A DNA stretch of 20,009 bases from a virus, in IMG/VR virus record IMGVR_UViG_3300048079_000025, positions 1 to 20,009 of that record; one strand, 5' to 3'. This document shows, in pieces, positions 1 to 12,982 of this stretch. The translations under genes and the position numbers were made by a program. The notes beneath the pieces are model-generated. The model searched no databases. It saw only the letters and a list, made by a program, of their open reading frames with translations, and was not told the origin of the DNA. The number at the start of each line of letters is the position of its first letter. Position 1 is the first letter of the stretch.

Positions 1-1312
1 CGGGGTCGTTGACGACATCCTCCGGTGCGTACTCGATCTTCGAGGGATCAAGGACCGTCTTTCGCATCATCGGAAAACCGTTCACGGAGATCTTTCCTGT
101 CTCTTCATAGCCCAATTTGTTCCAGTAGCTTTTCCCCTCTGTGGTGTTTATCATCGTGTTCTCAAGCTCGACATATTTAGCCCCGTACCGGCCGGCTTCT
201 TGCTCGAATGCACGAACCGTTTTCGTCCCGATGCCCGTCCCTTCGGTGTGCGAGATCACCGCGGTCAGGTACGCATGGCTCCCCTCGTAGATGTCGCCCT
301 GGAAGGTGACACCCTTCTCCGGATTCCCGGACACCCAGATCAACGTCCCTTCGTTGGTCTTGTACGGGCCGGAGATGCGGACAAGATCGGAGCGTTCAGG
401 AACGTACCGAGAGGGTTCCGGTTTGTTCACGGAGGCCACGTCCTGCGCGATGGTCACGTCGGTCAGCGAGTCCGCCGCCATGTCCGAGGGCCGGACCCCG
501 GTGTTGGCGAAGATGCCACGGGCTTTGGACACCGCGCGCTCCCCACCCTTAAACACGCCCATCACCACCAGAGAGTCCACAAACTCCATCGGCTCGGGTA
601 TGCGGAGTTCCAGCGCGGCACTCAGCGTGGTCAGGGTCGCGGCGTCCGAGGCCAGCATCGCCGCGCTCTTTACCGTGGGCGAGAGATACTTATCCGCCTT
701 CGGCCCGAGGAGGGCGCGCATTTTCACGATGCCAAATCCCTCGACATAACCCTTCGTGGTGTCCCAGGAGGCGCCGACCGCCCGATCTGCGAATTCCTTT
801 GCGCTCTTGACTTCCCCCTTGTCGTACTTGTCCATCATGATGCGCCGAAGGCCGGCGGTCAGCGCGAAGGAGCCCGCCACGCCTCTCGCGGTGGACCCTC
901 CGGACAGGGCCCCGAAGCCCATGTAGAACGGGAGATCCGCGACCATGCCGGTGAAGTTGGCGAACTGGCGCGCAAGGAACGGGGTATCGTTGTCCACTTC
1001 ATACGGAGAAGTCCGCTGTGTCGCACCCATCTCGAAGATCGACCCGAGGATCCCATGCTCGATCGCCTCGGGGATCGTCTTCACCGGCCACTTTTTCCTG
1101 CCGTGCGTTTCCTCCGTGGCGAGGTCCGCCGCCATGTGCTGTCGAATGGAGTCAGAGTTGAAGGGCGGGTCGCCATAGAAGGCGTCCACGTCGGTCCCGC
1201 TGAACCCGGCTTGCACCGCCTCGTTCCGTTCCTGATTGATCCCCTGCTGAATCTCTTCGTCAGAGAATCCCGCCGTCTTTGCTTTTTGGAGAAGCTCCTG
1301 GCCTTCGGTCAT
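1..1312 (-). CDS. Large internal virion protein (T7 gp16 position) with embedded GNAT acetyltransferase domain, partial
   Basis: An open frame runs from an ATG at 1312 through base 1 without a stop, giving 437 codons, so the 3' end lies outside the window. The ATG overlaps the upstream stop as ATGA. Near the N-terminus the motif AGFS occurs twice (AGFSDEEI and AGFSGTDVD), which I have seen as a repeat in large phage ejection proteins. Around residues 325-420 the sequence reads as a GNAT N-acetyltransferase: an acetyl-CoA loop EGTGIGTK with G358, G360 and G362, then a helix and a beta strand (AKYVELEN), then the typical late motif SYWNKLGYEETG near residue 396. The position after gp13-, gp14- and gp15-like genes indicates the protein ejected with the genome. 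Bcep22-like phages encode giant proteins at this place that collect enzymatic domains; that comparison is from family knowledge. No lytic transglycosylase motif is seen in the visible part. Confidence 0.8.
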   Translation of the reverse strand, partial: MTEGQELLQKAKTAGFSDEEIQQGINQERNEAVQAGFSGTDVDAFYGDPPFNSDSIRQHMAADLATEETHGRKKWPVKTIPEAIEHGILGSIFEMGATQRTSPYEVDNDTPFLARQFANFTGMVADLPFYMGFGALSGGSTARGVAGSFALTAGLRRIMMDKYDKGEVKSAKEFADRAVGASWDTTKGYVEGFGIVKMRALLGPKADKYLSPTVKSAAMLASDAATLTTLSAALELRIPEPMEFVDSLVVMGVFKGGERAVSKARGIFANTGVRPSDMAADSLTDVTIAQDVASVNKPEPSRYVPERSDLVRISGPYKTNEGTLIWVSGNPEKGVTFQGDIYEGSHAYLTAVISHTEGTGIGTKTVRAFEQEAGRYGAKYVELENTMINTTEGKSYWNKLGYEETGKISVNGFPMMRKTVLDPSKIEYAPEDVVNDP

Positions 1313-2844
1313 TGCTGCCGTTTCCGCCAATCCGGGTAGCTTTCCCCTGGCTTCCGCATTTTATCCGGCGTGAGCACTTGTGGCATCTTGACGTTGCCCC
1401 GGTACATGCCCTCTTTCATCGACTTGATGACTTCGAGCATCGTGCGCTTGTACGGCTCGATGACTTTGGGATCGCCCAGGTAGTCCGGGTGCTTGGGGTT
1501 GAAGAGGATATGGGGATCTTTCCCCGCCGCGCGATATTCCTCCACCACGCTGTCCACATACTCCCCGAATTCAAACGTCTTCTGCCGGCCAACCGGATCG
1601 TTCTTGATGGGCGTCGAATGATCGAGTTGCGGCTGAACGGACTTGAGGAAGGCCTCTCTTGTTTTGGACAGCCTCTCCCCGGCGGGGGTGCGAAGGTCCT
1701 GAAACTCTTTCCGGAGCTTCACGGTGTCTTCCCAAGAGAGCCCTCTATTTTTTTCAACACTTTGGGCGAAAATTTCCTCGATCTGGCTTTCATTCCGAAT
1801 CCCGTTCTCGGCCTCTGGATGCCGGATCCGATTCAGCACGTCCAGAAAGGTCGAGGGATCCCTGGCGATGGGCTTCTGCACGTCGAGCTTCGACTTCCAT
1901 TCGAGGAGCCGCGTCCAGTGTTCCTTCGAGTTCTCCCCGGTCGCGTCCAGGTTCGAGCGGGTAATCTCCCCGACCGCCAACTCGTCCTTCATCAGCTTCC
2001 CAAAGAAGTCGTTGCCGGTACTCTTCTGCGCGTCTTTCCGCATCCGGTCTTCCCGGCGCAGCACTCGATCTTCTTCGACCAGTTTCCCCCGGATCGCAAC
2101 CTCGGCGTGGCTCTGCAACACGGCCGTTTTGTCGGCGTCTAGGAATTTCGAGAATCGTCCGGACTTGATTGCCTTCTTCCCGAGTTCTCCGTCAATTTGA
2201 ATGAGGCCCTGGATCGCGGACAACGCCATTTGCTCCTGCGACGAGCGGAGCAGTTTCACGCGATCTGCCGCCGGCATTCCGGCGTAGAGGCCTTTGGGGT
2301 CTTCAATCGCGCGCTGCACGAACTGTAAACGGTTATCGAATTGTGTCGGGTCCAGCCAGAGCACGTTCCGCTCGGCATCGACCATCTGCAAGGCCGCCTG
2401 AGTCGCCCGCACCCCCACCAGACGAGCCTCCACCCGTCCAGACTCTACCATCAGCCTCGAACTGAGGTCCGCGGCCTCCCGTTTGAAGTATTGCCGCCCC
2501 TCCAAGGTGCGGGCCTTGGCCCCCATGCCGTCGATGTAGGCCCGCACCGACTCCTGGTACTTCTCGCCGAGCCCGATCGAGTCCTTGGGATCCCAGGTCT
2601 GTTCCAATTCCATCAGGTGCGTGGTGAGGTCCAGATTCGCCTTCGACATATCCGCATGGAGGTCGGTCAGGTCCGCGCGGACCTCCTGCGCCCGAATGTG
2701 CGTTCGCCCTTCCGACAGAATTTCCCCGACTTTCGCGAGGCCGGAGCCAAACGTGGAAAGTTCACGGCCCCCCGCCTCCGCCCTACGGCCGGGCGTCTCA
2801 ACCTGCGCGCTCGTCTGTTGTTCGTATTCCCGTATCTGAGGCAT
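1309..2844 (-). CDS. Internal virion (ejection) protein, T7 gp15-like position
   Basis: This 511-residue protein is mostly helical and rich in charged residues, with no signal peptide or membrane segment. It begins MPQIREYEQQTSAQVETPGRR, a start style common to phage inner core proteins, and contains long alpha-helical stretches (about residues 40-270) with many Glu, Lys and Arg. Its place between a gp14-like protein and the giant last gene fits the T7 core order gp14-gp15-gp16, proteins that form the ejected trans-envelope channel. The ATG follows an AAAGGA ribosome site after a 10-base gap, and its TGA overlaps the next ATG as ATGA, so the two are likely translated together. Assignment rests on position and composition, not on a motif that I can point to. 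Confidence 0.72.
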   Translation of the reverse strand: MPQIREYEQQTSAQVETPGRRAEAGGRELSTFGSGLAKVGEILSEGRTHIRAQEVRADLTDLHADMSKANLDLTTHLMELEQTWDPKDSIGLGEKYQESVRAYIDGMGAKARTLEGRQYFKREAADLSSRLMVESGRVEARLVGVRATQAALQMVDAERNVLWLDPTQFDNRLQFVQRAIEDPKGLYAGMPAADRVKLLRSSQEQMALSAIQGLIQIDGELGKKAIKSGRFSKFLDADKTAVLQSHAEVAIRGKLVEEDRVLRREDRMRKDAQKSTGNDFFGKLMKDELAVGEITRSNLDATGENSKEHWTRLLEWKSKLDVQKPIARDPSTFLDVLNRIRHPEAENGIRNESQIEEIFAQSVEKNRGLSWEDTVKLRKEFQDLRTPAGERLSKTREAFLKSVQPQLDHSTPIKNDPVGRQKTFEFGEYVDSVVEEYRAAGKDPHILFNPKHPDYLGDPKVIEPYKRTMLEVIKSMKEGMYRGNVKMPQVLTPDKMRKPGESYPDWRKRQQ

Positions 2845-2854
2845 GGTGGTAGAT

Positions 2855-3316
2855 TTATCCTTTCCGGTATGTTGAAGCGGCCTGCGCGCCCCCGACCAAC
2901 AGGGCCGAGGCTGCGCCTATGCGCCCCTGAGCCAGCGCCTCCTGCCCGGTGTAGTCTTCGTAGGCCGCTTCCGACTCGTACCCCATCGCTTTCACGCGGC
3001 CTTTATACAGGATGTTCTGCTTATCCATTTCGGCTTCGCTCGCGCTCATTGACAGGACATCCATCGGGGATCCTTCCAGACCGACCCCGGATGCCCCGGC
3101 AGACGCGCGGATGGCCCCCAGGCGGCGCCGGTTGATCCGGTCCTGCGCGTCGGCGTCCGCGTTGGCCTGTATGGACGCCGCGGCTGCTCTATTGCGGGCA
3201 GCGGCGGCGTTATACTCGGCCGCGTTTTTTGCCGAGGCCCCCTGCCGGAGTGCCCCCATTGCCTGCACAACTCCGGCGATAGCTGAGATGGCAGAGATAG
3301 CTACGACGGCGCCCAT
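2855..3316 (-). CDS. Internal virion protein, T7 gp14-like
   Basis: This protein has 153 residues. The N-terminal 20 residues are hydrophobic (MGAVVAISAISAIAGVVQAM), followed by an Ala/Gln/Asn-rich helix with the pattern YNAAAARNRAAAASIQANAD and a Gly/Ser turn region (ASGVGLEGSPMDVL). This combination is typical of the small gp14-class core proteins of podoviruses, which enter the host outer membrane during ejection. The C-terminal part is again Ala/Gly-rich. The ATG overlaps the upstream stop by one base (TAATG) and is preceded by GAAGGGAG. The next gene starts 10 bases after its stop. Confidence in the family is good; the detailed role is from T7. Confidence 0.78.
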   Translation of the reverse strand: MGAVVAISAISAIAGVVQAMGALRQGASAKNAAEYNAAAARNRAAAASIQANADADAQDRINRRRLGAIRASAGASGVGLEGSPMDVLSMSASEAEMDKQNILYKGRVKAMGYESEAAYEDYTGQEALAQGRIGAASALLVGGAQAASTYRKG

Positions 3317-3843
3317 TAAATTACTCCCTTCGGAAAGAGCACATATTTCATAAACGTCTCACCGTTTGGCCCGTACAGGGGCATGATACTTTCCGGCTGA
3401 AATCCGATGCGTGTCACCCATCGACACGCGACATCATCCGCGGACAGCACTTCACATTGCACGCGGCGGAGGCGCTGCTCCCTGATAATGCTCGTCATAT
3501 AGCCCATGACGTTCACATGAAAGGCCTTCGGGAACCGCTTGATCTCGTCTGACGCATTCACCCAGGCCATTCCAAGTCCGGGCCAGATTACCACGATGCC
3601 CGCGCAGACCACCACGCGGTCCCCCACCGTAGCGGAATAGGCCGGATGGTTCTCGTAAAACATCGCCGTCTCAAGCGACTTCTCATAACTCACCGCCGCG
3701 ACCACTTGATCCCGAGACGCGACGGCTAGAAAGTCCGCGGCCTGATACGGCCGAACTTCCCAGGTCAGCCCACGTCTTGCGTATGCAACTGCGGCATCAC
3801 GGCTAAAATCGTGCAGGGCACAGGCTGATCGATCCGCCAACAT
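3316..3843 (-). CDS. GNAT-fold virion-associated protein, T7 gp13-like (DUF2833 type)
   Basis: The 175-residue frame reads as a degenerate GNAT fold. It has a strand and helix near WEVRPYQAADFLAVASRDQ (residues 28-46), central strands around VVVCAGIVVIWPGLGMAWV, a helix, a strand (RVQCEVLSAD), and the late motif ACRWVTRIGFQPE (139-151). This is the layout of the T7 gp13-like family, which is needed for virion assembly and has an acetyltransferase-like fold. The acetyl-CoA loop is not obvious, so it may be non-catalytic. The only normal start codons are ATG at 3843 (AAAGGA upstream) and the adjacent TTG at 3840, which makes the first 79 bases overlap tail tubular protein B out of frame. A start nearer residue 26 would need a CTG. 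The stop overlaps the next ATG (TAATG). Confidence 0.75.
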   Translation of the reverse strand: MLADRSACALHDFSRDAAVAYARRGLTWEVRPYQAADFLAVASRDQVVAAVSYEKSLETAMFYENHPAYSATVGDRVVVCAGIVVIWPGLGMAWVNASDEIKRFPKAFHVNVMGYMTSIIREQRLRRVQCEVLSADDVACRWVTRIGFQPESIMPLYGPNGETFMKYVLFPKGVI

Positions 3844-6101
3844 ACATAGTTATCCTTTGTATAATCCCCCTCCCACCGGAATTCGTCTGTGAATCCGGTG
3901 AACAGAGGCGTGGGAAGAATCGGGTCCATCTGCGATGTCTGAAACACCAACGGTGTCAACTTCCCCGGGCCGCTCGTCTTAAACGTCGGGCCGACCTTGA
4001 TCCCGAGCGTGTCCAGGAACAGGAAGGCCACACGATGCGAGCGTTGGTACTTCGCCAGGGCCGTTCCGTCCGCGGCGCCCACGTCGAGCCGGAGCATCTG
4101 CCCGTCGCTGTTATAAGTATACCCTACTTGCACCTTGGACGCATTCGTGACGAGGGTAAATTTTCCAGTCGAATCGACCACGACATCCGGACGAGTGCCC
4201 CCGTCTGCCAGGACTTGCACGGTTTCCCCGATCAAATGCCCAAGGCCCCGCCATACGGTCTGCGGGGCGGCTGTGCCGGTGATCCCGCTGTCGAGATAAC
4301 TGGCATCGGCCTGAATGTCGCCGTGCTCGAACATGCGGGTTGAAAACTCGACATAGCGAACACTCCGGCCGTCAATGAATCGCTGCACCACCATCCAAAG
4401 TTCGTCGCGCTTTCCATCCGAGGAGGGGATGACGCAGATGGATTCCACCTTGGCCGGAACCGTCTTCGCGGCATCCGAGAATCCGCCCAGGATGTGCCGG
4501 CCCCACCCGAGAACCTTCTGATCGCGCTCGTAGGTGAATCCCAGGAGCACGCCGTCATTCCGGACGGCCCACAGGATCGAGATCGGATCCTGCTGAAACG
4601 CCAATTCCTTGATCCCGGAGGTTGCCACCGTGGGACCCTTGGTGATATGCTCGGCCAACACGGTCATGTCCGGGGCCCGGAAGGTGTTATCCTCAAACGA
4701 AAAGGCCAGTTCGCGCACTTTTCGCGTGGACTTTGTGACGTAGAGGACGGCCCCTCCTGTTCGCACCGCCTGAATGTCCGCGCTGCCGTAGAACCGGGAT
4801 TGTTTCGCGCTGATATTCGTCGGGCTCAACGCTTCATTCAATGCAGACGGCCGCACGATCCATTCTCCCTCGTAGGTTCCCACCAACATCCCCTGCTGAT
4901 CGCTTTTGAGCCATCGGAGCACTTGCACGTCGTCAGAGGAGAGCGTAAATGATACCGCATGATCGTCCACCACGGTCCCATCGGTGTCCGTTGGTGCGAA
5001 ATTGTTATAATCTCCGTTGCGCGAGCCATCAAGACGCTGTTGAAAGGTGGCGTTACCGCCCATCATCAAGCGGTCTTCATGGAAGGTGCCGCAGGACGGG
5101 AATCCGGTCGTATCGGAGAGCAAACCGAGACGCCAGTTCACTTTTGCATTGATGTTGGTCAGGGTTTTGATAACGTCCGCCTGAACATGCGTGGTATCCG
5201 TAAATATCGTTATCTGGACATACCCCCAGACGCCCCCTTCTTTCATCCGAATCAGTCGATTCACGTCCGTCGATTTGAATCCCGTGTCATTGTTGATCCC
5301 GACAATGGAAGAGGCGGTGACGGTAATCCCGGTCCCTGTTGCCGCGCTTGGGGTGAGCGTGGTGGTCGTGGAATTAACCGTAAGATACGGCCCGTCCAAA
5401 AAGGCGAGCTTTGTCACCGTCCAGTTGGTGTCGCTAAATCGATTGACCGTGCGTGGTGCGTACCCGGGATGGAAGACATAGAGCCGATCCGCAGATTGGG
5501 TGAATTTGAGTTGAAACAGATCCGCTTCCAGCCACGGAACATCCAATGTCACCGTAAAGATGCGCTGCGCGGTGCCGCCCGCGGTGTAGGCCGTGAACGC
5601 CAGACCGTTGATGTTCGTGCCACCGAGATTCGTGAGTTCAAACGTATCCGCCGTCTTATTCGCGACCTTAAAATCGCGATTGTTAATCTCCACCATGCCG
5701 CCCACCGCCAGGATCCGCACATGGTCGCCATTCACAAACCCATGCGCCACGGCGGTCACGACTACGGGGTTCGCGGCCGTGGCGCCGGTGATTGCTTTGG
5801 TCGCTTCGAGTACCGGGCCGTTATTTTTGTAGAAGCGAAGGGCTTGATTACTGAATTCAATGGCATACGCCGCGGTCGTGGAGAATTTGAACCGGACAAT
5901 ACGGGTGGCCTTCGTCGAGTCCCTCACTTCGGCGGCCCAATAGTTTCCCGGCCGGCGGGTCGCGCCTCCCTGGACGTAGGCGATCATGTTTTGGAAGAGC
6001 TTGAGCGAGGTTTTGTAGGCGTCAAAGTCCACGCGCCCGTCCATCAGGGGGGACAGTTCGCCTCCGTTGAAGCTCGTCTGACTCGGGGAGACTTTAGGCA
6101 C
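3765..6101 (-). CDS. Tail tubular protein B (T7 gp12-like nozzle protein)
   Basis: This protein has 778 residues and starts with GTG at 6101, three bases after the stop of tail tubular protein A. The N-terminus is the family hallmark: a PSQTSFNGGELSP stretch at about residues 5-17, followed by DAYKTSLKLFQNMIAYVQGGATRRPG-type sequence near residues 27-52. The rest is beta-rich, with Thr/Val/Asp strands, as expected for the propeller-like nozzle of T7-type tails. The protein extends the short tail below the gp11-like ring and opens for DNA release. Family and length agree with the T7 gp12 class (about 790 residues). The end overlaps the following gene by 79 bases in another frame. Position next to the gp11 homologue supports the call. 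Confidence 0.93.
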   Translation of the reverse strand: MPKVSPSQTSFNGGELSPLMDGRVDFDAYKTSLKLFQNMIAYVQGGATRRPGNYWAAEVRDSTKATRIVRFKFSTTAAYAIEFSNQALRFYKNNGPVLEATKAITGATAANPVVVTAVAHGFVNGDHVRILAVGGMVEINNRDFKVANKTADTFELTNLGGTNINGLAFTAYTAGGTAQRIFTVTLDVPWLEADLFQLKFTQSADRLYVFHPGYAPRTVNRFSDTNWTVTKLAFLDGPYLTVNSTTTTLTPSAATGTGITVTASSIVGINNDTGFKSTDVNRLIRMKEGGVWGYVQITIFTDTTHVQADVIKTLTNINAKVNWRLGLLSDTTGFPSCGTFHEDRLMMGGNATFQQRLDGSRNGDYNNFAPTDTDGTVVDDHAVSFTLSSDDVQVLRWLKSDQQGMLVGTYEGEWIVRPSALNEALSPTNISAKQSRFYGSADIQAVRTGGAVLYVTKSTRKVRELAFSFEDNTFRAPDMTVLAEHITKGPTVATSGIKELAFQQDPISILWAVRNDGVLLGFTYERDQKVLGWGRHILGGFSDAAKTVPAKVESICVIPSSDGKRDELWMVVQRFIDGRSVRYVEFSTRMFEHGDIQADASYLDSGITGTAAPQTVWRGLGHLIGETVQVLADGGTRPDVVVDSTGKFTLVTNASKVQVGYTYNSDGQMLRLDVGAADGTALAKYQRSHRVAFLFLDTLGIKVGPTFKTSGPGKLTPLVFQTSQMDPILPTPLFTGFTDEFRWEGDYTKDNYVCWRIDQPVPCTILAVMPQLHTQDVG

Positions 6102-6104
6102 GGC

Positions 6105-6725
6105 TTAGTCCCACACTCCGCGCAGCCAGTTGACATTCCCCGGGCTTCCGGCACGCCGGGCCGCCACCCAACTGTCCTCCGGGCCCTCGTCCGCGACCTT
6201 CTCAAAGGAATTCATTCGCCGGGCTTCCGACACGGCGAGTTTATACATGCGCTCCGCCTTCTCGAATTTCGAGGTACTCTGCGTGAGGTCCTCGCAAATA
6301 ATCAACGCGAGCGCCGCGGACACCGCATCGACAAAGTTGGGGTCAAAGAGATTCGGATCCACCACGCGCGAGATGTAGACGAGGTTGAGCGTGTCGCCTT
6401 CATTCGTCAGAATACACCGGAGACTGTTGTGCAATTCGAGGCTCCAATCCAGGCCCAGGCGCGAGGGGGGCAGGATCCGCAGGCAATCCGCCGGGATCGC
6501 AAACGCGAACGAGTAGTCAAACGCCGGCACCGCCACGTCCGGCGAGAGGACCGCCCGCTTCACGGCGAACCGCCAGGTGTGCGCGCGAAGCTCGGAGTCT
6601 CGCACCGCCACATATTCCGAGTCGCAGGACCGGAAATTCTTGCTGTCTTCCCCGATCGCGGCGATGCGCTGCGCCCCGAGAATCGTCAGCGCGGAATTGA
6701 AAATCTGTAAAGTTGAAGATGCCAT
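6105..6725 (-). CDS. Tail tubular protein A (T7 gp11-like adaptor)
   Basis: This 206-residue protein forms the ring that joins portal and nozzle in T7-type tails. The start MASSTLQIFNSALTILGAQRI is typical of the family, as are the motif LRAHTWRFAVKRA (about 46-58), the segment YSFAFAIPADCLRIL, and the late helix with TQSTSKFEKAERMYKLAVSEAR-type sequence (about 149-170) ending in an EDSWVAARR tail. The ATG is 12 bases after the LamG gene's stop and is preceded by GGAGG. The stop is followed after three bases by the GTG of tail tubular protein B, so the pair is co-translated. I see nothing irregular. Confidence 0.92.
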   Translation of the reverse strand: MASSTLQIFNSALTILGAQRIAAIGEDSKNFRSCDSEYVAVRDSELRAHTWRFAVKRAVLSPDVAVPAFDYSFAFAIPADCLRILPPSRLGLDWSLELHNSLRCILTNEGDTLNLVYISRVVDPNLFDPNFVDAVSAALALIICEDLTQSTSKFEKAERMYKLAVSEARRMNSFEKVADEGPEDSWVAARRAGSPGNVNWLRGVWD

Positions 6726-6737
6726 ACGTTGCCTCCG

Positions 6738-7445
6738 TCAGAAAATAAGATATTTTTGATTTAAGTACGTTGTGACCCGCCCGCGTTCAGTCGCATCTAA
6801 CACTTTATTATAGAGCACAATTTCAAAGAGATCGCTGTTCGACAGTTCCGCGGTTCCGGCATTAAGTCCATTCGTGCTCAAATCACTCGGCCCATAGAGC
6901 CCGTTCGCGTTCGTCGCTAACAGCCCCCCGTTGACATAGAAATGACCGACGTTGGTAGCCTCGACCCTGCTGGCGGCATACAGGCGCGCGGTCGTATCGT
7001 GTGCAGGGCCTCCGCCCGGCCCAAGGATCCAATCGCCCATATAACAGTTATCCATGCTGAGGGTGTAGAATCCGACGAGCCAGTTATTCCCGGCTCCGAC
7101 AATGCGCCCGGGAGTTGTTGTATTGGTATATTTTGCTACATAGAGAATCGTCATATTGGAGTCTACAAGACCAACAGTACGGGTTAAGACATTTTGACCG
7201 GCCACCGTATGACGAACCGAGGCCTTTCCATTCAGAATGTTCGTTTTATAGATCGGACGAGTGGCGTCAACGATTTTGTCGAGATGATTGCCGGCCCCGC
7301 TTTCGTCAACCCACTGATTGATCGGGTCGCCATCAGAAAGAGCGGAGAGAGATTCGGGACGAGTCCACAGGATCAGTCCGGTGATGTCCAAAGGAAAACT
7401 AGCTCCGCTGTTCAGAAGAAATGCTCGACGCCGTGATTGTCTCAT
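6738..7445 (-). CDS. LamG / concanavalin A-like lectin domain protein, probable tail adhesin
   Basis: This protein has 235 residues. After a basic N-terminus (MRQSRRRAF) the rest is one jelly-roll lectin domain. The conserved opening GLILWTRPESLSALSDGD, the segment QWVDESGAGNHLDK and the strand RPIYKTNILNGKASVRH match LamG-type domains frequent in phage and bacterial surface proteins. It continues through strand patterns such as MTILYVAKYTN and GHFYVNGG, and closes with the usual helix LDATERGRVTTYLNQKY. Such domains bind glycans, so a role in host attachment is likely. The gene lies between a repeat-bearing surface protein and tail tubular protein A. Spacing is tight, with the ATG three bases after the upstream stop and GGAG as ribosome site. 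No catalytic residues are evident. Confidence 0.85.
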   Translation of the reverse strand: MRQSRRRAFLLNSGASFPLDITGLILWTRPESLSALSDGDPINQWVDESGAGNHLDKIVDATRPIYKTNILNGKASVRHTVAGQNVLTRTVGLVDSNMTILYVAKYTNTTTPGRIVGAGNNWLVGFYTLSMDNCYMGDWILGPGGGPAHDTTARLYAASRVEATNVGHFYVNGGLLATNANGLYGPSDLSTNGLNAGTAELSNSDLFEIVLYNKVLDATERGRVTTYLNQKYLIF

Positions 7446-7448
7446 TGC

Positions 7449-8549
7449 TTATCTCCGCCGGCGCTTAAACAGCGCCATGAACCCGCTGCCCCCGCCTTCG
7501 CCGGGGATGAACAGCGTCCCGAGGACCGCCACGCCCACCGCGATCGCGGCCAGAGTCTTTTTATAAAGCGCCTTCGCCGCCAGCACCGGCACCCCGATCG
7601 CCACCGCAGCTATTGTAACAGTATGCTGTAAAATTGTCATCATGGTGGAAATCCCGATCACCACGGCCGCGAGCGTCTTAAAATGCTTGGCGGTTGCCAC
7701 GATCGTAGGAATCCCGATCGCCACCGCTGCGGGCGCCCTAAAACGCTTGGAAATCCTGGTCAGAACCGGCACCCCGATCGCCACCGCCGCGGGCGCCCTA
7801 AAACGCTTGACAAATCTGGTCAGAACCGGCACCCCGATTGAGACGGCAGGGATCGTTTGCGCGTTCCCTCCCGACTTGATCTCAATCCCAATCGCACCCC
7901 ACAGATCAGAGACATTTAGCGTACAGCCGACCGTGGTATCACCCCCGTTCGGGTTCTGATAATGGACGGTGAACCAATTACGTTCGGTTTCGTGGTTCTC
8001 GGCCAACTCGCTGCGGCCTTCGGTTTCCGTGAAGCCCACCAAGTCGTCCCGCACCACGCAGAGCAACAAGAGGTTGTCCGTCGCCCCAAACGCATTCATC
8101 GTGACGGCGGGCGCCGTACCCGTCCCCGTCGCTTTGACCACCTTCACAATCGTCCCGCTGTCATCCTCCCCTGAAATATAGAACAGGATGGCCGCACAGA
8201 CCGATTGCGTAGCAGGAGGATCAATACGGATAAGGGCCGTCCCTGTCGTGGTCGTCACATTGACCTGCCAGAGTGAGATGACACCCGTAGTCGCACTTAA
8301 CTCTAACTTGGTGTCGGTCGTTCCGTCAGTGACGAGAGAGAAACTGAGTGGTGTGCCGGCGGGATCGTGAACGACGGTATCCGGGTATTCTTGCGCGCCA
8401 GAGGAATAGTTCTCGACGAGCATGAAGTACCGACGCCCCGCGACAAGCTGGACGGTGTAGGTATTGGTCCCGGCACTCGTATCGTAAACGCCGAGGTTCG
8501 CTACATCGAACCACGTTCCGTTGACGAGGGTGGGGCCGGTGATCGCCAT
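7449..8549 (-). CDS. Virion surface protein with beta-rich head and six 20-residue C-terminal repeats
   Basis: This protein has 366 residues in two parts. Residues 1-227 are beta-rich with many Thr, Gly and Val and look like a phage fibre or jelly-roll domain (for example TGTGTAPAVTMNAFGATDN and the closing LWGAIGIEIKSG). Residues 231-350 consist of six exact-length 20-residue units of the pattern AAVAIGVPVLTRxxKRFRAP: a hydrophobic small-residue run followed by a basic stretch. The tail is Gly-rich and ends in KRRRR. The repeat could be a beta-solenoid or a set of membrane-inserting segments; sequence alone does not decide. The gene starts one base after the upstream stop (TAAGATG) and lies next to the LamG gene, suggesting a host-contact role. 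I do not recognise a named family. Confidence 0.8.
   Translation of the reverse strand: MAITGPTLVNGTWFDVANLGVYDTSAGTNTYTVQLVAGRRYFMLVENYSSGAQEYPDTVVHDPAGTPLSFSLVTDGTTDTKLELSATTGVISLWQVNVTTTTGTALIRIDPPATQSVCAAILFYISGEDDSGTIVKVVKATGTGTAPAVTMNAFGATDNLLLLCVVRDDLVGFTETEGRSELAENHETERNWFTVHYQNPNGGDTTVGCTLNVSDLWGAIGIEIKSGGNAQTIPAVSIGVPVLTRFVKRFRAPAAVAIGVPVLTRISKRFRAPAAVAIGIPTIVATAKHFKTLAAVVIGISTMMTILQHTVTIAAVAIGVPVLAAKALYKKTLAAIAVGVAVLGTLFIPGEGGGSGFMALFKRRRR
7500..7859 (-). repeat. Six tandem imperfect 60-bp repeats inside the surface protein gene
   Basis: The plus-strand motif CCGATCGCCACCGC recurs in the same register every 60 bases (for example at 7594, 7714 and 7774, with variants at 7654, 7534 and 7834). 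The two units around 7721-7833 are nearly identical, including GCGGGCGCCCTAAAACGCTTG. Units toward the gene's 3' end have diverged more in DNA than in hydrophobic pattern. Each unit encodes 20 residues, so copy-number change keeps the frame. Confidence 0.93.
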
Positions 8550-8550
8550 C

Positions 8551-8913
8551 TTATCCCGTCGTGCTGATGTCGCTTAGGAACGTCGGCAACCCGTCGCGGA
8601 TCGCTCTTGCAGCGTCTTGGCTCAAGTCAAGCGCGTTATAGAAGGCATCAATACCGATCTCGGCATCATGCGCTGTCTCGACAGTATCGAGCGCAAACAC
8701 CTTGTCCTCGATCTGCTGCGCTCTCGCAGTCCGCTGCCCTGGCACAATCATATCATCGGCACGCAGCGCGTTGAGGGCCAAGGTGTCGGCTTGGATCAGT
8801 TCGCTTACAAGTGCCCGTTCCGCGGCGTCTAACCGCAGATCGGTTTCAAGAAGGGCCAATCGCACCAGTGCCCCTTCGAGCGCGACCCGGACTGTAAAGA
8901 TTTCCAAAGCCAT
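8551..8913 (-). CDS. Hypothetical helical virion-region protein
   Basis: This 120-residue protein of unknown function is predicted by eye to be almost wholly alpha-helical, rich in Ala, Leu, Asp and Glu. It has heptad-like Leu/Val spacing in the first half (VALEGALVRLALLETDLRL) and a less regular second half. There is no Cys, no signal peptide and no membrane segment. It lies between a small structural gene and the repeat-bearing surface protein. Its position suggests a tail fibre adaptor or chaperone, but that is only inference. The upstream gap is 33 bases with no clear ribosome site, and its stop is one base from the next ATG, so translation may depend on coupling. Confidence 0.65.
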   Translation of the reverse strand: MALEIFTVRVALEGALVRLALLETDLRLDAAERALVSELIQADTLALNALRADDMIVPGQRTARAQQIEDKVFALDTVETAHDAEIGIDAFYNALDLSQDAARAIRDGLPTFLSDISTTG

Positions 8914-8946: not shown

Positions 8947-9330
8947 TTAGGCCGACGTTTGCTGTAGGGTGATCGTAAACTGAATTTGGTCGTTGAGCGC
9001 CAGGACAATGCCGGTAAAATCGCCCTTGACGACGAGATTCCCGGCTGTGGACGCATCAAAGACCCCGGCGTTGGTGATCGTCTTGGCTCCGTCTGCGGTT
9101 AGCGTTGCCAGCCATTGATTCTTATCGGCGGTCGGCTGCGACACGGTGCCGCCGACGCGGGCTTCTGAGGCTTCGGTGAAGAGCGTGGTGTCCGCGTCCG
9201 TGGCCGTGCCCGCGCCCGTTCCCCATGCGACGAAGTTATTGCTCGTTCCAAGATTGGTGGGGGATGTCGCAGTTCCGTCAATGATGTCCACCACTTTGTT
9301 ACGCCCGTTGATGCAGTATTTTGTTGCCAC
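8947..9330 (-). CDS. Small beta-rich virion protein, GTG start
   Basis: This protein has 127 residues. I place the start at the GTG at 9330, read as (M)ATKYCINGRNK. It sits one base after the upstream stop and has GGGAG at a proper distance, whereas the next upstream ATG (9384) lies inside the preceding gene. The product is rich in Thr, Ala, Gly and Asp, with strand patterns such as NQWLATLTADGAKTITNAG and QIQFTITLQQTSA. This suggests a beta-sandwich decoration or tail protein. The series of similarly small beta-type genes between capsid and fibre genes supports a structural role. No family is recognised with certainty. Confidence 0.72.
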   Translation of the reverse strand: MATKYCINGRNKVVDIIDGTATSPTNLGTSNNFVAWGTGAGTATDADTTLFTEASEARVGGTVSQPTADKNQWLATLTADGAKTITNAGVFDASTAGNLVVKGDFTGIVLALNDQIQFTITLQQTSA

Positions 9331-9331
9331 G

Positions 9332-9556
9332 TTAGAACTTCTCCCGCGAAATGACGCCCAGATCTTCCCAGGTGTCGGTTGCACTACGATAGACTTTTGC
9401 GGCGACCGTTACCTCGCCGTGTGTATCACCCGCAACCCCCCCATCAAATTGAGAGCCATCATTACGGGCGAACGCACGTCCCCGTGAACCGTAGGGAGCA
9501 ACCCGGTGCTCCCCACGTCGCTTCATCTTCACCCAATCAAACAGGCGGCCGAACAT
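9332..9556 (-). CDS. Small basic hypothetical protein
   Basis: This 74-residue protein has a basic amphipathic N-terminus (MFGRLFDWVKMKRRGEHR) and a short beta-like second half (GEVTVAAKVYRSATDTWEDLG). The ATG directly follows the upstream TAA with no gap, and the stop is one base before the next start, so it is embedded in the late operon. It has no cysteine and no membrane segment. Function is unknown; location in the head/tail gene array suggests a minor virion component. Confidence 0.65.
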   Translation of the reverse strand: MFGRLFDWVKMKRRGEHRVAPYGSRGRAFARNDGSQFDGGVAGDTHGEVTVAAKVYRSATDTWEDLGVISREKF

Positions 9557-9910
9557 TTAATGGACCGTCCGAACAGCCAGGAGCGTGACCTTCGCCACCA
9601 CGCCGGTTCCCGCGGACACACGCGGACGAATATAACGGGGACGTTGCTTCACCGATTTCATTCCGGTCGCGGTGAAACTCAACGCGGCCCCATCATAGTC
9701 CGTCAGCGTAAAAAACGAAGTCAAGCTGTTCGATCCTTCAAGAACAACGACCGGCCCGGCCCCGGCCGAGATCTGAATCTCCATCGTGACATCCGAGCAT
9801 TCCGGGTATTCAAAGGCCTCACCGACATTGTTCGTTTCGGTCAGGTTGTCCCACACAACGTCTTTGGACCGAATACCAATGTCTGTGACAATGATCTTAA
9901 TCGTCGCCAT
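9557..9910 (-). CDS. Small beta-rich virion-type protein
   Basis: This 117-residue protein is rich in Val, Thr and Ile with alternating strand patterns (MATIKIIVTDIG, VTMEIQISAGAGPVVVLEGS) and a C-terminal strand region. The pattern resembles small head-completion or decoration proteins, but I cannot name the family. The ATG is 12 bases after the upstream stop and is preceded by AAGGGGA. Neighbours on both sides are late genes of similar size, indicating one polycistronic block behind the capsid gene. Confidence 0.72.
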   Translation of the reverse strand: MATIKIIVTDIGIRSKDVVWDNLTETNNVGEAFEYPECSDVTMEIQISAGAGPVVVLEGSNSLTSFFTLTDYDGAALSFTATGMKSVKQRPRYIRPRVSAGTGVVAKVTLLAVRTVH

Positions 9911-9922
9911 GTCTCAGTCCCC

Positions 9923-10117
9923 TTACGCGATTGGACTGGTTTCTTTGATCTGGATGTAGGATCGAATCGCTTCCAACGACAGTACCACGTCCATCTTGTT
10001 CGTGTAGATCGTATCGTTGACACGCAATTCGATCGCCTCTCCGGAGGTCGCGGCCCCTTCCGTCACTTTGTCCGGAAGGTGCTCGCCCTTAATCACGCTG
10101 TAAAATCGGTCAGCCAT
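9923..10117 (-). CDS. Small hypothetical late protein
   Basis: This 64-residue protein begins MADRFYSVIKGEHLPDKVTEG and ends ETSPIA. It mixes short strands and a helix (DVVLSLEAIRSYI) and is mildly acidic, with no Cys. A strong ribosome site (AAGGGGGG) precedes the ATG after a 24-base gap. It is the second gene after the capsid gene; a small virion protein is likely, but nothing in the sequence proves it. Confidence 0.7.
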   Translation of the reverse strand: MADRFYSVIKGEHLPDKVTEGAATSGEAIELRVNDTIYTNKMDVVLSLEAIRSYIQIKETSPIA

Positions 10118-10141
10118 GTATCAGCCCCCCTTTCGTACAGC

Positions 10142-10651
10142 TTACTGCGCGTATTCGCAGCGGACGCCGAGCGCCCCGAGGCCGGTCGTGACATCCACGG
10201 TCACGGTGAAACAGATGTCCAAGGAGGACTTGGGATCCTCGGCCATGCCCAACGCCTTCCACAACGGATCGTTGCGCTTGGCAATCGTGTTGGTGGCGGA
10301 CTCATTCGAGATTTCCGATCCATCCACGGCCGCGATCAAAGAAAGTGAGGAGGCGAAATAATCCGCATCCACCACCGCGCCCCCGTCCTTGTTGTTCCGG
10401 TACACGCCCACATGACCGTCTCCGGCCGCCTGAATAGCGGTATAGAACTTGAGACTCGTCACGATGGCATTGGACGGCACATCGCACAACCGGATGATCG
10501 ATGTCGCGCTGAGTCCAGCCGGCACCGACGCGAGAAACCCATACACAGAATGCAACCGAGATGCTCCACCGGCGCCAGGGTTGTTGGCGACGGAGGGGGT
10601 GGCTTCGCGATTCGCGATCGCCGTTGACTTGAGTGTGAGATCGATAGCCAT
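10142..10651 (-). CDS. Virion structural protein following the capsid gene (possible decoration protein)
   Basis: This 169-residue protein is beta-rich, with Ala, Ser, Val and Asp prominent. It contains a central strand pair (SIIRLCDVPSNAIVTSLKFY), a stretch GDGHVGVYRNNKDGG that looks like an exposed loop, and a C-terminal strand SLDICFTVTVDV. Its place directly behind the major capsid gene fits a capsid decoration or head-stabilising protein. It is separated from the capsid gene by a GC-only hairpin, so its expression may be lower. Start ATG 10651 with AAGGAG is well placed. The specific role is inference from position. Confidence 0.75.
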   Translation of the reverse strand: MAIDLTLKSTAIANREATPSVANNPGAGGASRLHSVYGFLASVPAGLSATSIIRLCDVPSNAIVTSLKFYTAIQAAGDGHVGVYRNNKDGGAVVDADYFASSLSLIAAVDGSEISNESATNTIAKRNDPLWKALGMAEDPKSSLDICFTVTVDVTTGLGALGVRCEYAQ

Positions 10652-10674
10652 GTGATGTTACTCCTTGTAATGCA

Positions 10675-10707: not shown

Positions 10708-11604
10708 TTAGACTCTGAACGATTCGATCTTGACGATCTTCTTCTCTTCGATGCGAGTGGCGCCGAAGGTGCCGAGCACATACGCCTGCCACGGTTCGCT
10801 CTGGATGTCGTGTCGCTGCGACACGGTGGCCGTGATGTCATTCCACACGCCCAGGTGCATCCCGGACCGAGCCCACACCGGCAGCAGCACTTCGCCGCCG
10901 ACGAGACTCAGGGATTCAAACAGTTCACAGTGAACCAGATTCATCCCGAGGAACTTCGTCACTTTACCATCCACCAGGACCGGGCGATCCGAGCCCGCGA
11001 AATCCGAACTGATGACCTGGATTTCGTTCAACAGCGCGCTGTGGTCCTTCGCCGTGATTCCGCAATAGACGGGATCATTGTCGAAGTCCACGAAGTTCGC
11101 CATCAAGATTTCCTTGGCCGTAATCATCTTCTGCACGTTGATGCGGGAGTTATTTCCACCCACATCTTCGTTGACGACCTGCGCGGCCGGGAAGATCGTA
11201 GTCGAACCACCCTGCTCGCCGGTCTTGGCATCGCCAAAGAACGCGGCGATGATCTCCGCATCCAGTTTCCGTCCAAGGGCGTACACCGCGTTCTGGACGT
11301 ACACCGATTCCGGATCCGTAATGAGGCGGAGTTTGTCGAATCTGTCGATCATCTGAGCGAGGTCGTAGTCCGTCGGGAAGACCCACCGACGATCGAGAAC
11401 CGCATCCGTGCGAGGCATCGGTCCAAACCGACTCGTCACTTTGCTGGCTTCAACTGACCCGACCTGATCGACAGGCGAGGCCTGTTTGCCAGTATAGTGC
11501 CCTTCATCCACGCACATTCGCAGCTTGGCGCCCTTCTGTTGGAGCAACACCTGGATGTTCGTGGAGAACCCGATTGTAAACTGTGTAGGAATATTAACAG
11601 ACAT
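10708..11604 (-). CDS. Major capsid protein
   Basis: This 298-residue protein forms the icosahedral shell. It starts MSVNIPTQFTIGFSTNIQVLLQQKG and carries the pattern of the podoviral capsid family also seen beside T7-class portals in BPP-1/Bcep22-like phages. Visible pieces include a helix-rich region around YDLAQMIDRFDKLRLI, a long central helix DAEIIAAFFGDA, a strand DPVYCGITAKDHSALL, and a C-terminal strand with GATRIEEKKIVKIE. A separate scaffold gene lies upstream and there is no prohead protease, which agrees with this family. It is the only gene with its own long leader (195 bases), a promoter-like element upstream and a hairpin downstream, as expected for the most abundant virion protein. 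Confidence 0.9.
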   Translation of the reverse strand: MSVNIPTQFTIGFSTNIQVLLQQKGAKLRMCVDEGHYTGKQASPVDQVGSVEASKVTSRFGPMPRTDAVLDRRWVFPTDYDLAQMIDRFDKLRLITDPESVYVQNAVYALGRKLDAEIIAAFFGDAKTGEQGGSTTIFPAAQVVNEDVGGNNSRINVQKMITAKEILMANFVDFDNDPVYCGITAKDHSALLNEIQVISSDFAGSDRPVLVDGKVTKFLGMNLVHCELFESLSLVGGEVLLPVWARSGMHLGVWNDITATVSQRHDIQSEPWQAYVLGTFGATRIEEKKIVKIESFRV

Positions 11605-11799: not shown

Positions 11800-12696
11800 T
11801 TATTCCGGGTAGGCAATCGCGTGAAGACGCTGCATCTTCTCTCGCGACTCCGCCCTCGTCTTGGGATCGTGGCTGTTGAACATCTCCACGAAGTCCCGGT
11901 TATTCTTGAGGCGAGTGATTTCCAATGCGGCCGATTCCGGTGACAGGGCATTGAAATCTCGGTTCCCACCGCCGCCAATGAGCCCCTTATCCTCCACCGC
12001 GACCTTCGACCCGAGGTTATGCAGGAAGTTCATTGCCGCCTTGGGTCCCATCGCAGCCTTGAGTGCCAGAATGTGCGCCTCGCTCATACCGAAGGCCTTC
12101 GCGCAGTTGTCTACAATGGTACAGCGCGATTGATACTCTTTCCCCCATTCTGTCTTGAGTGCGGCGACATCGGCGGTGTGAGTTTCCTCCGTCTTGAGAG
12201 AGTCGGCTTTGATAAGCCCGGCCATGTGACCGTTCCATTTCTCCGCCAGTTTCACCGCCTGGTTCTGGCTCATGCCGAGTTCGTGAAACCACTTACCGGC
12301 TTCCTTGGCAAACTCGCCGGTATCCCCTTCGGGCACCGGGAGCTTGTACCCCTCCGCCGTGGCCGGCCGGCCGAGCTTGTCGTAAACCTGATTCCAGGAT
12401 TCGGGATTCGCGTCCGTGGGCAGTTTGATGATCTTGTCCGCGGGCACCCCGGTCAGCTTCTCAAGGTTTGTGTAGGACTTGAGAAGATCGCCTGGATTCT
12501 TCCATTGCCGCTCCGTCACCAGGGCCAGGCCAACCGGGTCCACCGAACCCTCCTTGGCCCAATCATACGCGGGAGCGGGCGCTCCGGGTGCTCCGGCGGC
12601 TCCGGGTGCTCCGGCGGCTCCGGGTGCTCCGGCGGCTCCGGGTGCTCCGGCGGCTCCTGTATCTGCTCCTGCTGCTCCTGCTGCTGCGTCTGCCAT
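11800..12696 (-). CDS. Capsid scaffold protein with collagen-like N-terminus
   Basis: This 298-residue protein assists assembly of the procapsid. The start is ATG 12696, with GGAGGAATAAT directly upstream; a longer frame to 12756 runs into the previous gene and is unlikely. Residues 1-42 are Ala/Gly/Pro only, mostly in Gly-X-Y triplets (GAPGAA repeated). The remainder matches phage scaffolds of this group: GVPADKIIKLPTDANPESW, then LGRPATAEGYKLPVPEG, then a helical core with GMSQNQAVKLAEKWNGHMAGL-type sequence, and a charged C-terminal helix. It lies immediately before the capsid gene, as scaffolds normally do. The collagen-like head is unusual; such triplets are better known from phage fibres. 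Confidence 0.87.
   Translation of the reverse strand: MADAAAGAAGADTGAAGAPGAAGAPGAAGAPGAAGAPGAPAPAYDWAKEGSVDPVGLALVTERQWKNPGDLLKSYTNLEKLTGVPADKIIKLPTDANPESWNQVYDKLGRPATAEGYKLPVPEGDTGEFAKEAGKWFHELGMSQNQAVKLAEKWNGHMAGLIKADSLKTEETHTADVAALKTEWGKEYQSRCTIVDNCAKAFGMSEAHILALKAAMGPKAAMNFLHNLGSKVAVEDKGLIGGGGNRDFNALSPESAALEITRLKNNRDFVEMFNSHDPKTRAESREKMQRLHAIAYPE
12581..12652. repeat. Four perfect 18-bp tandem repeats in the scaffold gene
   Basis: The unit GCTCCGGGTGCTCCGGCG (plus strand) occurs four times without change and is followed by a partial copy. On the coding strand each unit gives AGAPGA, the Gly-X-Y run of the scaffold N-terminus. Perfect identity at DNA level, third positions included, points to recent slippage expansion. 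Copy number may vary between relatives. Confidence 0.97.
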
Positions 12697-12697
12697 A

Positions 12698-12982
12698 TTA
12701 TTCCTCCCCCTTTGTCGGGCGTTGCCCGGTCCCGTAGAGCGTCCACATGGCGTCATCGGTCAACCGGAGATGATGTTGGATCCTCAGAAACACTTCCCGC
12801 CTCCCATCGAGCCGTGCGGCGACCGTGGGGTTCGGATGTCCCGTCGAATCATGCGCCCGACAAAAGGCGGCAAGATCCGCGAGCACAGTTTTCGCGTCCA
12901 GGTTGTCCTGCGAGAAGACCCGGAGATACGATCTCCGGCGACCCAGGAGAAACCTTCGCGCGCGTTCAACGAGTGGATTCAT
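12698..12982 (-). CDS. Bbp19-like small virion protein
   Basis: This protein has 94 residues and starts at ATG 12982, which overlaps the portal stop (TAATG). The longer frame up to 13189 lies inside the portal gene and is a shadow. The sequence has the Bbp19-like features: an N-terminal basic helix, then VFSQDNLDAKTVLADLAAFCRAH, a segment RLDGRREVFLRIQHHLRL, and the acidic turn TDDAMWTLYG. Bbp19 was first listed in Bordetella phage BPP-1 and regularly lies between portal and scaffold or capsid genes; its exact role is not known to me. The context here is identical. Confidence 0.85.
   Translation of the reverse strand: MNPLVERARRFLLGRRRSYLRVFSQDNLDAKTVLADLAAFCRAHDSTGHPNPTVAARLDGRREVFLRIQHHLRLTDDAMWTLYGTGQRPTKGEE

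Follow-up and report, generated by a model that had tools for sequence, protein, structure and literature searches.

What role might be played by a virus protein that ends in a series of short tandem repeats, and into what fold might such repeats assemble? These questions are raised by the gene for a 366 aa repeat protein (REP), found on the minus strand at 7449..8549 of the window, by which we mean the whole of the DNA analysed here, an entire IMG/VR virus record of 20,009 bases. The window carries podovirus structural genes, as judged from PHROG matches (terminase, portal, a scaffold-like protein, major capsid protein, tail tubular proteins A and B, and internal virion proteins), and the contig is clearly the structural region of a podovirus, a short-tailed bacterial virus. 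Located on the minus strand are the major capsid protein (10708..11604; phrog_3437, E=5e-66), and proteins like tail tubular A (6105..6725; phrog_394, E=1.7e-48) and tail tubular B (3765..6101; phrog_376, E=1.4e-177). Small genes resembling those for internal virion proteins lie at 3316-3843 and 2855-3316, the first of which overlaps the tail tubular B gene and shows a further likeness to acetyltransferases (phrog_4177, phrog_308). The scaffold-like protein (11800-12756) contains (GAPGAA)n close to its N-terminus, encoded by a perfect (100%) 18-base repeat of 4.3 copies at 12581-12693.

The repeat array

The array of REP consists of six uninterrupted units of 20 residues (window 7488-7847, minus strand), which begin at residues 235, 255, 275, 295, 315 and 335, and so exactly every 20 residues, in agreement with a preliminary description of six in-phase units of equal length (60 bp). 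On the minus strand, unit 1 (AVSIGVPVLTRFVKRFRAPA) occupies 7788..7847, unit 2 (AVAIGVPVLTRISKRFRAPA) 7728..7787, unit 3 (AVAIGIPTIVATAKHFKTLA) 7668..7727, unit 4 (AVVIGISTMMTILQHTVTIA) 7608..7667, unit 5 (AVAIGVPVLAAKALYKKTLA) 7548..7607 and unit 6 (AIAVGVAVLGT) 7488..7547, the last of which passes after about 11 residues into a Gly-rich tail. A core of A-[VI]-x-[IV]-G-[VI]-[PSA] is common to the units. Two longer motifs previously ascribed to every unit are more restricted: KRFRAP is present only in units 1 and 2, and an exact AAVAIGVPVL only in units 2 and 5.

That the array is real, and far beyond chance, is evident from its lag-20 self-identity of 0.456, a value reached by none of 20,000 shuffles (shuffle maximum 0.214); when units 3-6 are taken alone, the count remains 0/20,000. 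Tandem Repeats Finder reports a repeat of period 60 at 7713-7838, with 94% matches. At the DNA level, units 1 and 2 share 51/60 bases (85%), differing by 3 amino-acid replacements and 4 synonymous codon changes. The near-identity of DNA noted earlier for two units thus holds for this pair, but not for any other, as all remaining pairs are identical at only 21-38 of 60 bases.

The array sits at the C-terminal end of REP and is followed by FIPGEGGGSGFMALFKRRRR (7452..7511, minus strand), a FIPG/Gly-rich linker with a basic end, with which the protein terminates. Upstream of the array, residues 1-228 (7866..8549, minus strand) form a beta-rich region that belongs to no detectable family and has no weighty match in Pfam, NCBIfam or PDB; our structural model is unreliable in this part.

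Relatives among uncultured phages

Relatives were retrieved from IMG/VR by degenerate DNA patterns with 60-base spacing, and then sorted by local profile searches. The first such pattern returned mostly antisense frames of (VG)n, pentapeptide repeats and leucine-rich repeats. Approximately ten non-redundant repeat proteins of uncultured phages were recovered (L236, L207/L222, L124/L129/L140, L131, L191, L244, L245, L247/L249, L251 and L240; loci joined by a slash are identical or near-identical contigs), the consensus unit of which is ARTLAATAVGVAVLTRVATL. Scored against a profile from which it had been withheld, the window reached 71.2 bits; none of 500 shuffles exceeded 12.3, and the window in reverse obtained 10.6. 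Reversed members of the family also reach as much as 84 bits, which means that raw E-values overstate significance for sequences as periodic as these.

Unit length among the relatives ranges from 18 to 23 residues, with most indels located in the loop that surrounds the basic/aromatic stretch; in the 18-residue variant (e.g. ATAVGVAAVARKISMTLA, ATAVGSAALVKKMFVTLT) two loop residues are missing. Two unit types occur within one array in L244 (2363-4789), L124, L236 and L207, namely a 20-residue type A and an 18-residue type B (x-KK-x-x-x-TL), and in L244 type B recurs at about every fourth unit (78 aa). The domains fused to the array also differ: a LamG domain (Pfam Laminin_G_3, E=3e-15; in L247) and a carboxypeptidase-regulatory-like domain are each present in one member, and inspection of the L244 sequence indicates three tandem beta-type domains.

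A Gly-rich linker and basic tail close the arrays of several relatives, preceded by TFIPG or TFISG in three of them. The tail of REP resembles the ends of L124 (TFISGGGGGGG...LIKRR), L131 (TFIPGGGGGG...RRNKNRKQQN) and L207 (TFIPGAPP...), and also that of L247, which is Gly-rich and basic but lacks FIPG. Acidic residues are nearly absent from these arrays: that of REP contains 13 basic residues and none that are acidic, and in close relatives acidic residues make up 0.3-2.6%, compared to 5-13% for basic residues. A basic face is not universal, however, since more distant arrays of 20-residue units, those of the SDTVGITD type, are rich in acidic residues.

Those distant arrays merit a brief comment. 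Long arrays of a repeat of the type SDTVGITDxLSRxxxFIRSL occur in phage proteins at L120, L069, L111, L125, L133, L141, L144 and L149; its spacing is like that of the REP unit offset by one, its composition is acidic, and it possibly represents a sister repeat family. Short phage proteins with repeats of about 20 residues (VTGVSAATAVGSVQVDITVP) were also encountered (L169, L171, L174, L177-L178 and some 25 similar loci), and these share a conserved terminal motif, WNPITYTQxPxWTKIAA, and constitute a separate widespread repeat family.

The earlier suggestion that the repeat lacks a named family is upheld in Pfam, NCBIfam and PDB, where we found no weighty or solved match to it, while unnamed PHROG clusters do contain it (see below). 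Pfam matches of REP to RNase_P_Rpp14 and CBM_56 fell below the cut-off and were disregarded. No close relative was found in IMG/VR with the whole REP protein or with tail tubular protein B as query, and a strict repeat pattern recovered only unrelated repeats from 84,980 prokaryote genomes. REP-type queries yielded no tblastn match among cultured phages, for which a low-complexity filter is possibly responsible, and literature searches did not return a description of a REP-type repeat.

Predicted fold of the repeat

Two monomer models were compared, one of the window protein, from an eleven-row alignment (the window and ten relatives), and one of the ten-unit array of L236, from a thirteen-row alignment; a 52-row sliding-window alignment was too gappy for folding and was dropped. 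The window model is of low confidence (mean pLDDT 38.9; array about 50, remainder 30-40) and places two strands in each unit. Structural comparison nonetheless matched its residues 217-348 to right-handed solenoids (2.6-3.2 Å over 116-124 residues), including 3lyc (2.6 Å over 124 residues, at residues 217-347), cyclase-associated protein (3.0 Å over 116), filamentous haemagglutinin and bactofilins. The L236 model is all-beta (pLDDT 78.5, pTM 0.74). Solved structures on which it could be superposed include the HxuA secretion domain (4i84; Z 14.9, 2.9 Å over 187 residues), DUF2807-type 3lyc (Z 14.2, 2.7 Å over 175), a PL6 lyase (3.5 Å over 202) and Cthe_2159 (3.4 Å over 186). Left-handed LpxD and GlmU, in contrast, could be aligned to it only at more than 10 Å rmsd, and REP has no Pfam hexapeptide match; neither result fits a hexapeptide left-handed beta-helix. 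Foldseek searches of PDB and BFVD returned nothing at E<=0.001, the BFVD matches being uncharacterised phage proteins, one of them at TM 0.71 and 3.7 Å.

A right-handed beta-solenoid with one coil per unit is therefore supported by prediction, with agreement between two models built on different alignments, and the guess of a beta-solenoid made from the window is borne out to this extent. A near-constant unit of about one coil with loop indels, as characterises such solenoids, is found here (20 residues in the window, 18-23 in relatives), and the superposition on solved right-handed solenoids is one of predicted models. AlphaFold tends to draw solenoids for tandem repeats.

A rather unlikely alternative, though one to be taken seriously, is that the repeats form the shaft of a homotrimeric fibre (a triple beta-spiral or a related intertwined beta-fibre), in which strand, Gly/Pro turn, strand and variable loop would alternate and no monomeric solenoid would exist. 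Phage fibre shafts are mostly trimers, the Gly(-x-Pro) turn between hydrophobic strands together with an 18-23-residue variable loop is reminiscent of a triple beta-spiral, and the paired strands per unit of the low-confidence window model would suit such a shaft. Yet the monomer model of the L236 array has reasonable confidence and fits right-handed solenoids of solved structure at 2.7-2.9 Å, and the period is 20 residues, as opposed to the 15 of adenovirus-type triple beta-spirals.

It was also proposed that the units are membrane-inserting segments that aid genome entry, a possibility that we consider very remote. The array is 61% hydrophobic, and hydropathy averaged over 19 residues peaks at 1.6-2.04 in units 4-6, values that would be compatible with insertion. 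However, each hydrophobic run is only some 10 residues long and is cut by Gly and Lys/Arg in every unit, beta structure is predicted throughout, and the amphipathic spacing is unchanged in longer relatives.

A conserved gene neighbourhood

Upstream of REP on the minus strand lie, in turn, a 120-aa gene (8551..8913) of helical appearance by sequence and with no Pfam or PHROG match, a gene for a Gp80-like fibre/collar protein (8947..9330; PF23140, E=9e-6, marginally below the Pfam cut-off), and a 74-aa gene (9332..9556), a similar small gene being present, as judged by eye, ahead of the collar gene in L244 and L131. Alignment to homologues indicates that the collar gene probably starts at a GTG at 9330, the longest ORF running from 9384. 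A collar homologue in L222 matches PF23140 (Gp80, podophage GP4 fibre I) above the cut-off (E=1.8e-8), and a search with a profile of the collar family matched no solved structure. Downstream of REP is a LamG/ConA-like virion protein (6738..7445, minus strand; phrog_10356, E=6e-10), a homologue of which (E=7e-11) likewise follows immediately after the REP homologue in L191.

The 250 loci were collected by repeat pattern alone, independently of the collar gene. Each of the six non-redundant relatives for which upstream DNA is available (L124, L131, L222, L244, L247 and L251) nevertheless has a collar homologue just ahead of its repeat gene, a placement seen at no other locus. By inspection, the gene order in L140 is major capsid, small genes, collar, REP and tail genes. 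The window itself has, beside REP, the Gp80-like anchor gene by which a Gp80-type neck/tail-fibre module would be recognised.

A similar layout is seen in two public phages, BUCT-ZZ01 (L253) and MW202796 (L252), that were found by using the collar protein as query. In BUCT-ZZ01, a cultured Synechococcus phage whose host is S. elongatus PCC 7942, the collar gene is followed by a 150-aa gene and then by a 395-aa protein with 20-residue periodicity (0/500 shuffles by residue class), whose profile match is marginal (5.6e-5 in a small set). In MW202796, a protein at 9372-10661, encoded right after an annotated 'tail collar fiber protein', carries an 18-residue repeat, TYLSSSTSTIIKAVSTTLS; despite this clear periodicity it has no profile match, and we do not count it as a member of the repeat family.

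This neighbourhood bears on the suggestion that REP is a fibre or host-contact protein, to which the adjoining Gp80-like collar and LamG-like genes lend indirect support; the label of phage surface protein is one that we infer. The long fibre of phage DEV has been reported to have a 15-membered, podophage GP4-like collar (PMC10925440), and the neck fibres of A-1(L) are assembled from the separate proteins gp82, gp81 and gp80 (PMC10966104). We call REP a fibre component because of these precedents together with its collar/LamG neighbourhood, and gene order suggests that it may attach to the Gp80-like protein.

An alternative location is the interior of the virion, where a nucleic-acid-associated REP would bind packaged DNA or the inside of the capsid through its basic array and KRRRR tail. 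The charge of the array and of the C-terminus fits such a role, but REP adjoins the collar and lectin-like genes, away from the genes for internal virion proteins (1309-3843), in its relatives the array is joined to LamG or to several beta domains, and the helical features of ejection proteins are absent; we therefore judge this explanation improbable.

Variation in unit number

Unit number is not fixed, as between 5 and 18 units were detected per relative, supporting the gain and loss of units over evolutionary time as read from these sequences. The preliminary description went further and proposed ongoing copy-number change, a contingency-like switching that would vary the length of a host-contact protein. 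Although the spread among lineages and the 85% DNA identity of units 1 and 2 in the window might be taken to favour such switching, it is improbable: unit number is the same within each group of identical or near-identical contigs (L124/L129/L140; L207/L222, with 2 base differences; L247/L249), units 1 and 2 are no more than 85% identical, and tandem duplication at the DNA level is undetectable in L236 and L244 and weak in L207.

A proposed role for REP

On balance, we lean towards the view that REP is a component of a podovirus neck or tail fibre, the C-terminal half of which is a short, basic, right-handed beta-solenoid rod. REP would thus be a virion appendage protein within a neck/tail-fibre module led by the Gp80-like collar protein. 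Each 20-residue unit would form one turn of a right-handed parallel beta-solenoid, with the small and hydrophobic ATAVGVA segment and the conserved Gly packed inside, and the stretch bearing R/K and aromatic residues (K-x-F-x-K/R) exposed to solvent at one corner. Solenoids usually rise by about 0.48 nm per turn. The six turns of REP would give a stub of approximately 3 nm, and the rods of relatives with 8-18 units would extend further. Binding or docking is probably the function of the beta-rich head at the N-terminus, which is exchanged between relatives, for LamG in L247 and for three tandem beta domains in L244. The solenoid may act as a spacer, one face of which is basic, and the Gly linker and KRRRR end as a flexible basic anchor or point of contact. 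The location of REP in the virion, the end by which it is attached, its oligomeric state, its ligand and an anionic partner (perhaps a surface polysaccharide or a virion component) are parts of this scheme that we infer.

As the same repeat is found in 5-18 copies beside the same collar gene in many uncultured phages, it looks like a widespread and uncharacterised building block of phage attachment fibres. More tentatively, and with less conviction than for REP itself, we suggest that these proteins may represent an undescribed and widespread class of neck/tail appendage in phages. Such appendages would be modular rods, assembled from interchangeable beta-solenoid coils of 20 residues or of 18 (type B), with one basic face, a tail of Gly and basic residues and a gene next to that of a Gp80-like collar; their heads would be swapped, and their length would be set by unit number. 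An anonymous repeat can now be treated as a definable family, with a predicted fold and a conserved address by the Gp80-like collar gene, and the cultured Synechococcus phage BUCT-ZZ01 offers a candidate relative that would be tractable. If correct, the proposal would provide phages with a simple modular means of setting appendage length and presenting interchangeable binding heads, and a self-stacking 20-residue coil would be of interest for protein design.

Comparison with known systems

Solenoid rods in virion appendages are of a known kind, while for the REP repeat, its genomic address and the modular way in which it is used we found no description in the sources searched. Its closest known counterparts include two unnamed and unannotated phage protein clusters of unknown function whose profiles cover the same repeat: PHROG 22415 (L244, 5e-10; L247, 3e-6; the window only weakly, at 0.0053) and PHROG 23524 (L207, 3e-5; L240, 8e-4). 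Among solved folds, the DUF2807/head GIN domain (PF10988; 3lyc, 3pet) is a right-handed beta-solenoid and the best-fitting class for both models, yet REP has no PF10988 match at E<=1 and one relative reaches only E=0.027, and GIN domains occur in bacterial surface proteins and lack the REP-unit motif. The secretion-domain beta-helix of HxuA and FHA is similarly right-handed (the 2.9 Å match over 187 residues of the L236 array), but belongs to far larger bacterial TPS proteins for which no sequence relation to REP was found. In module organisation, Gp80 (PF23140, podophage GP4 fibre I) and the A-1(L) neck fibres are comparable, with a Gp80-like anchor gene followed by separate genes for distal parts, although A-1(L) neck fibres are not built of 20-residue repeats. 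Finally, the BACON repeats of crAss-like phages (PMC6949934) are also tail-associated tandem arrays whose number evolves by duplication, but there the repeated element is a whole Ig-like domain, whereas in REP it is a unit of 20 residues.
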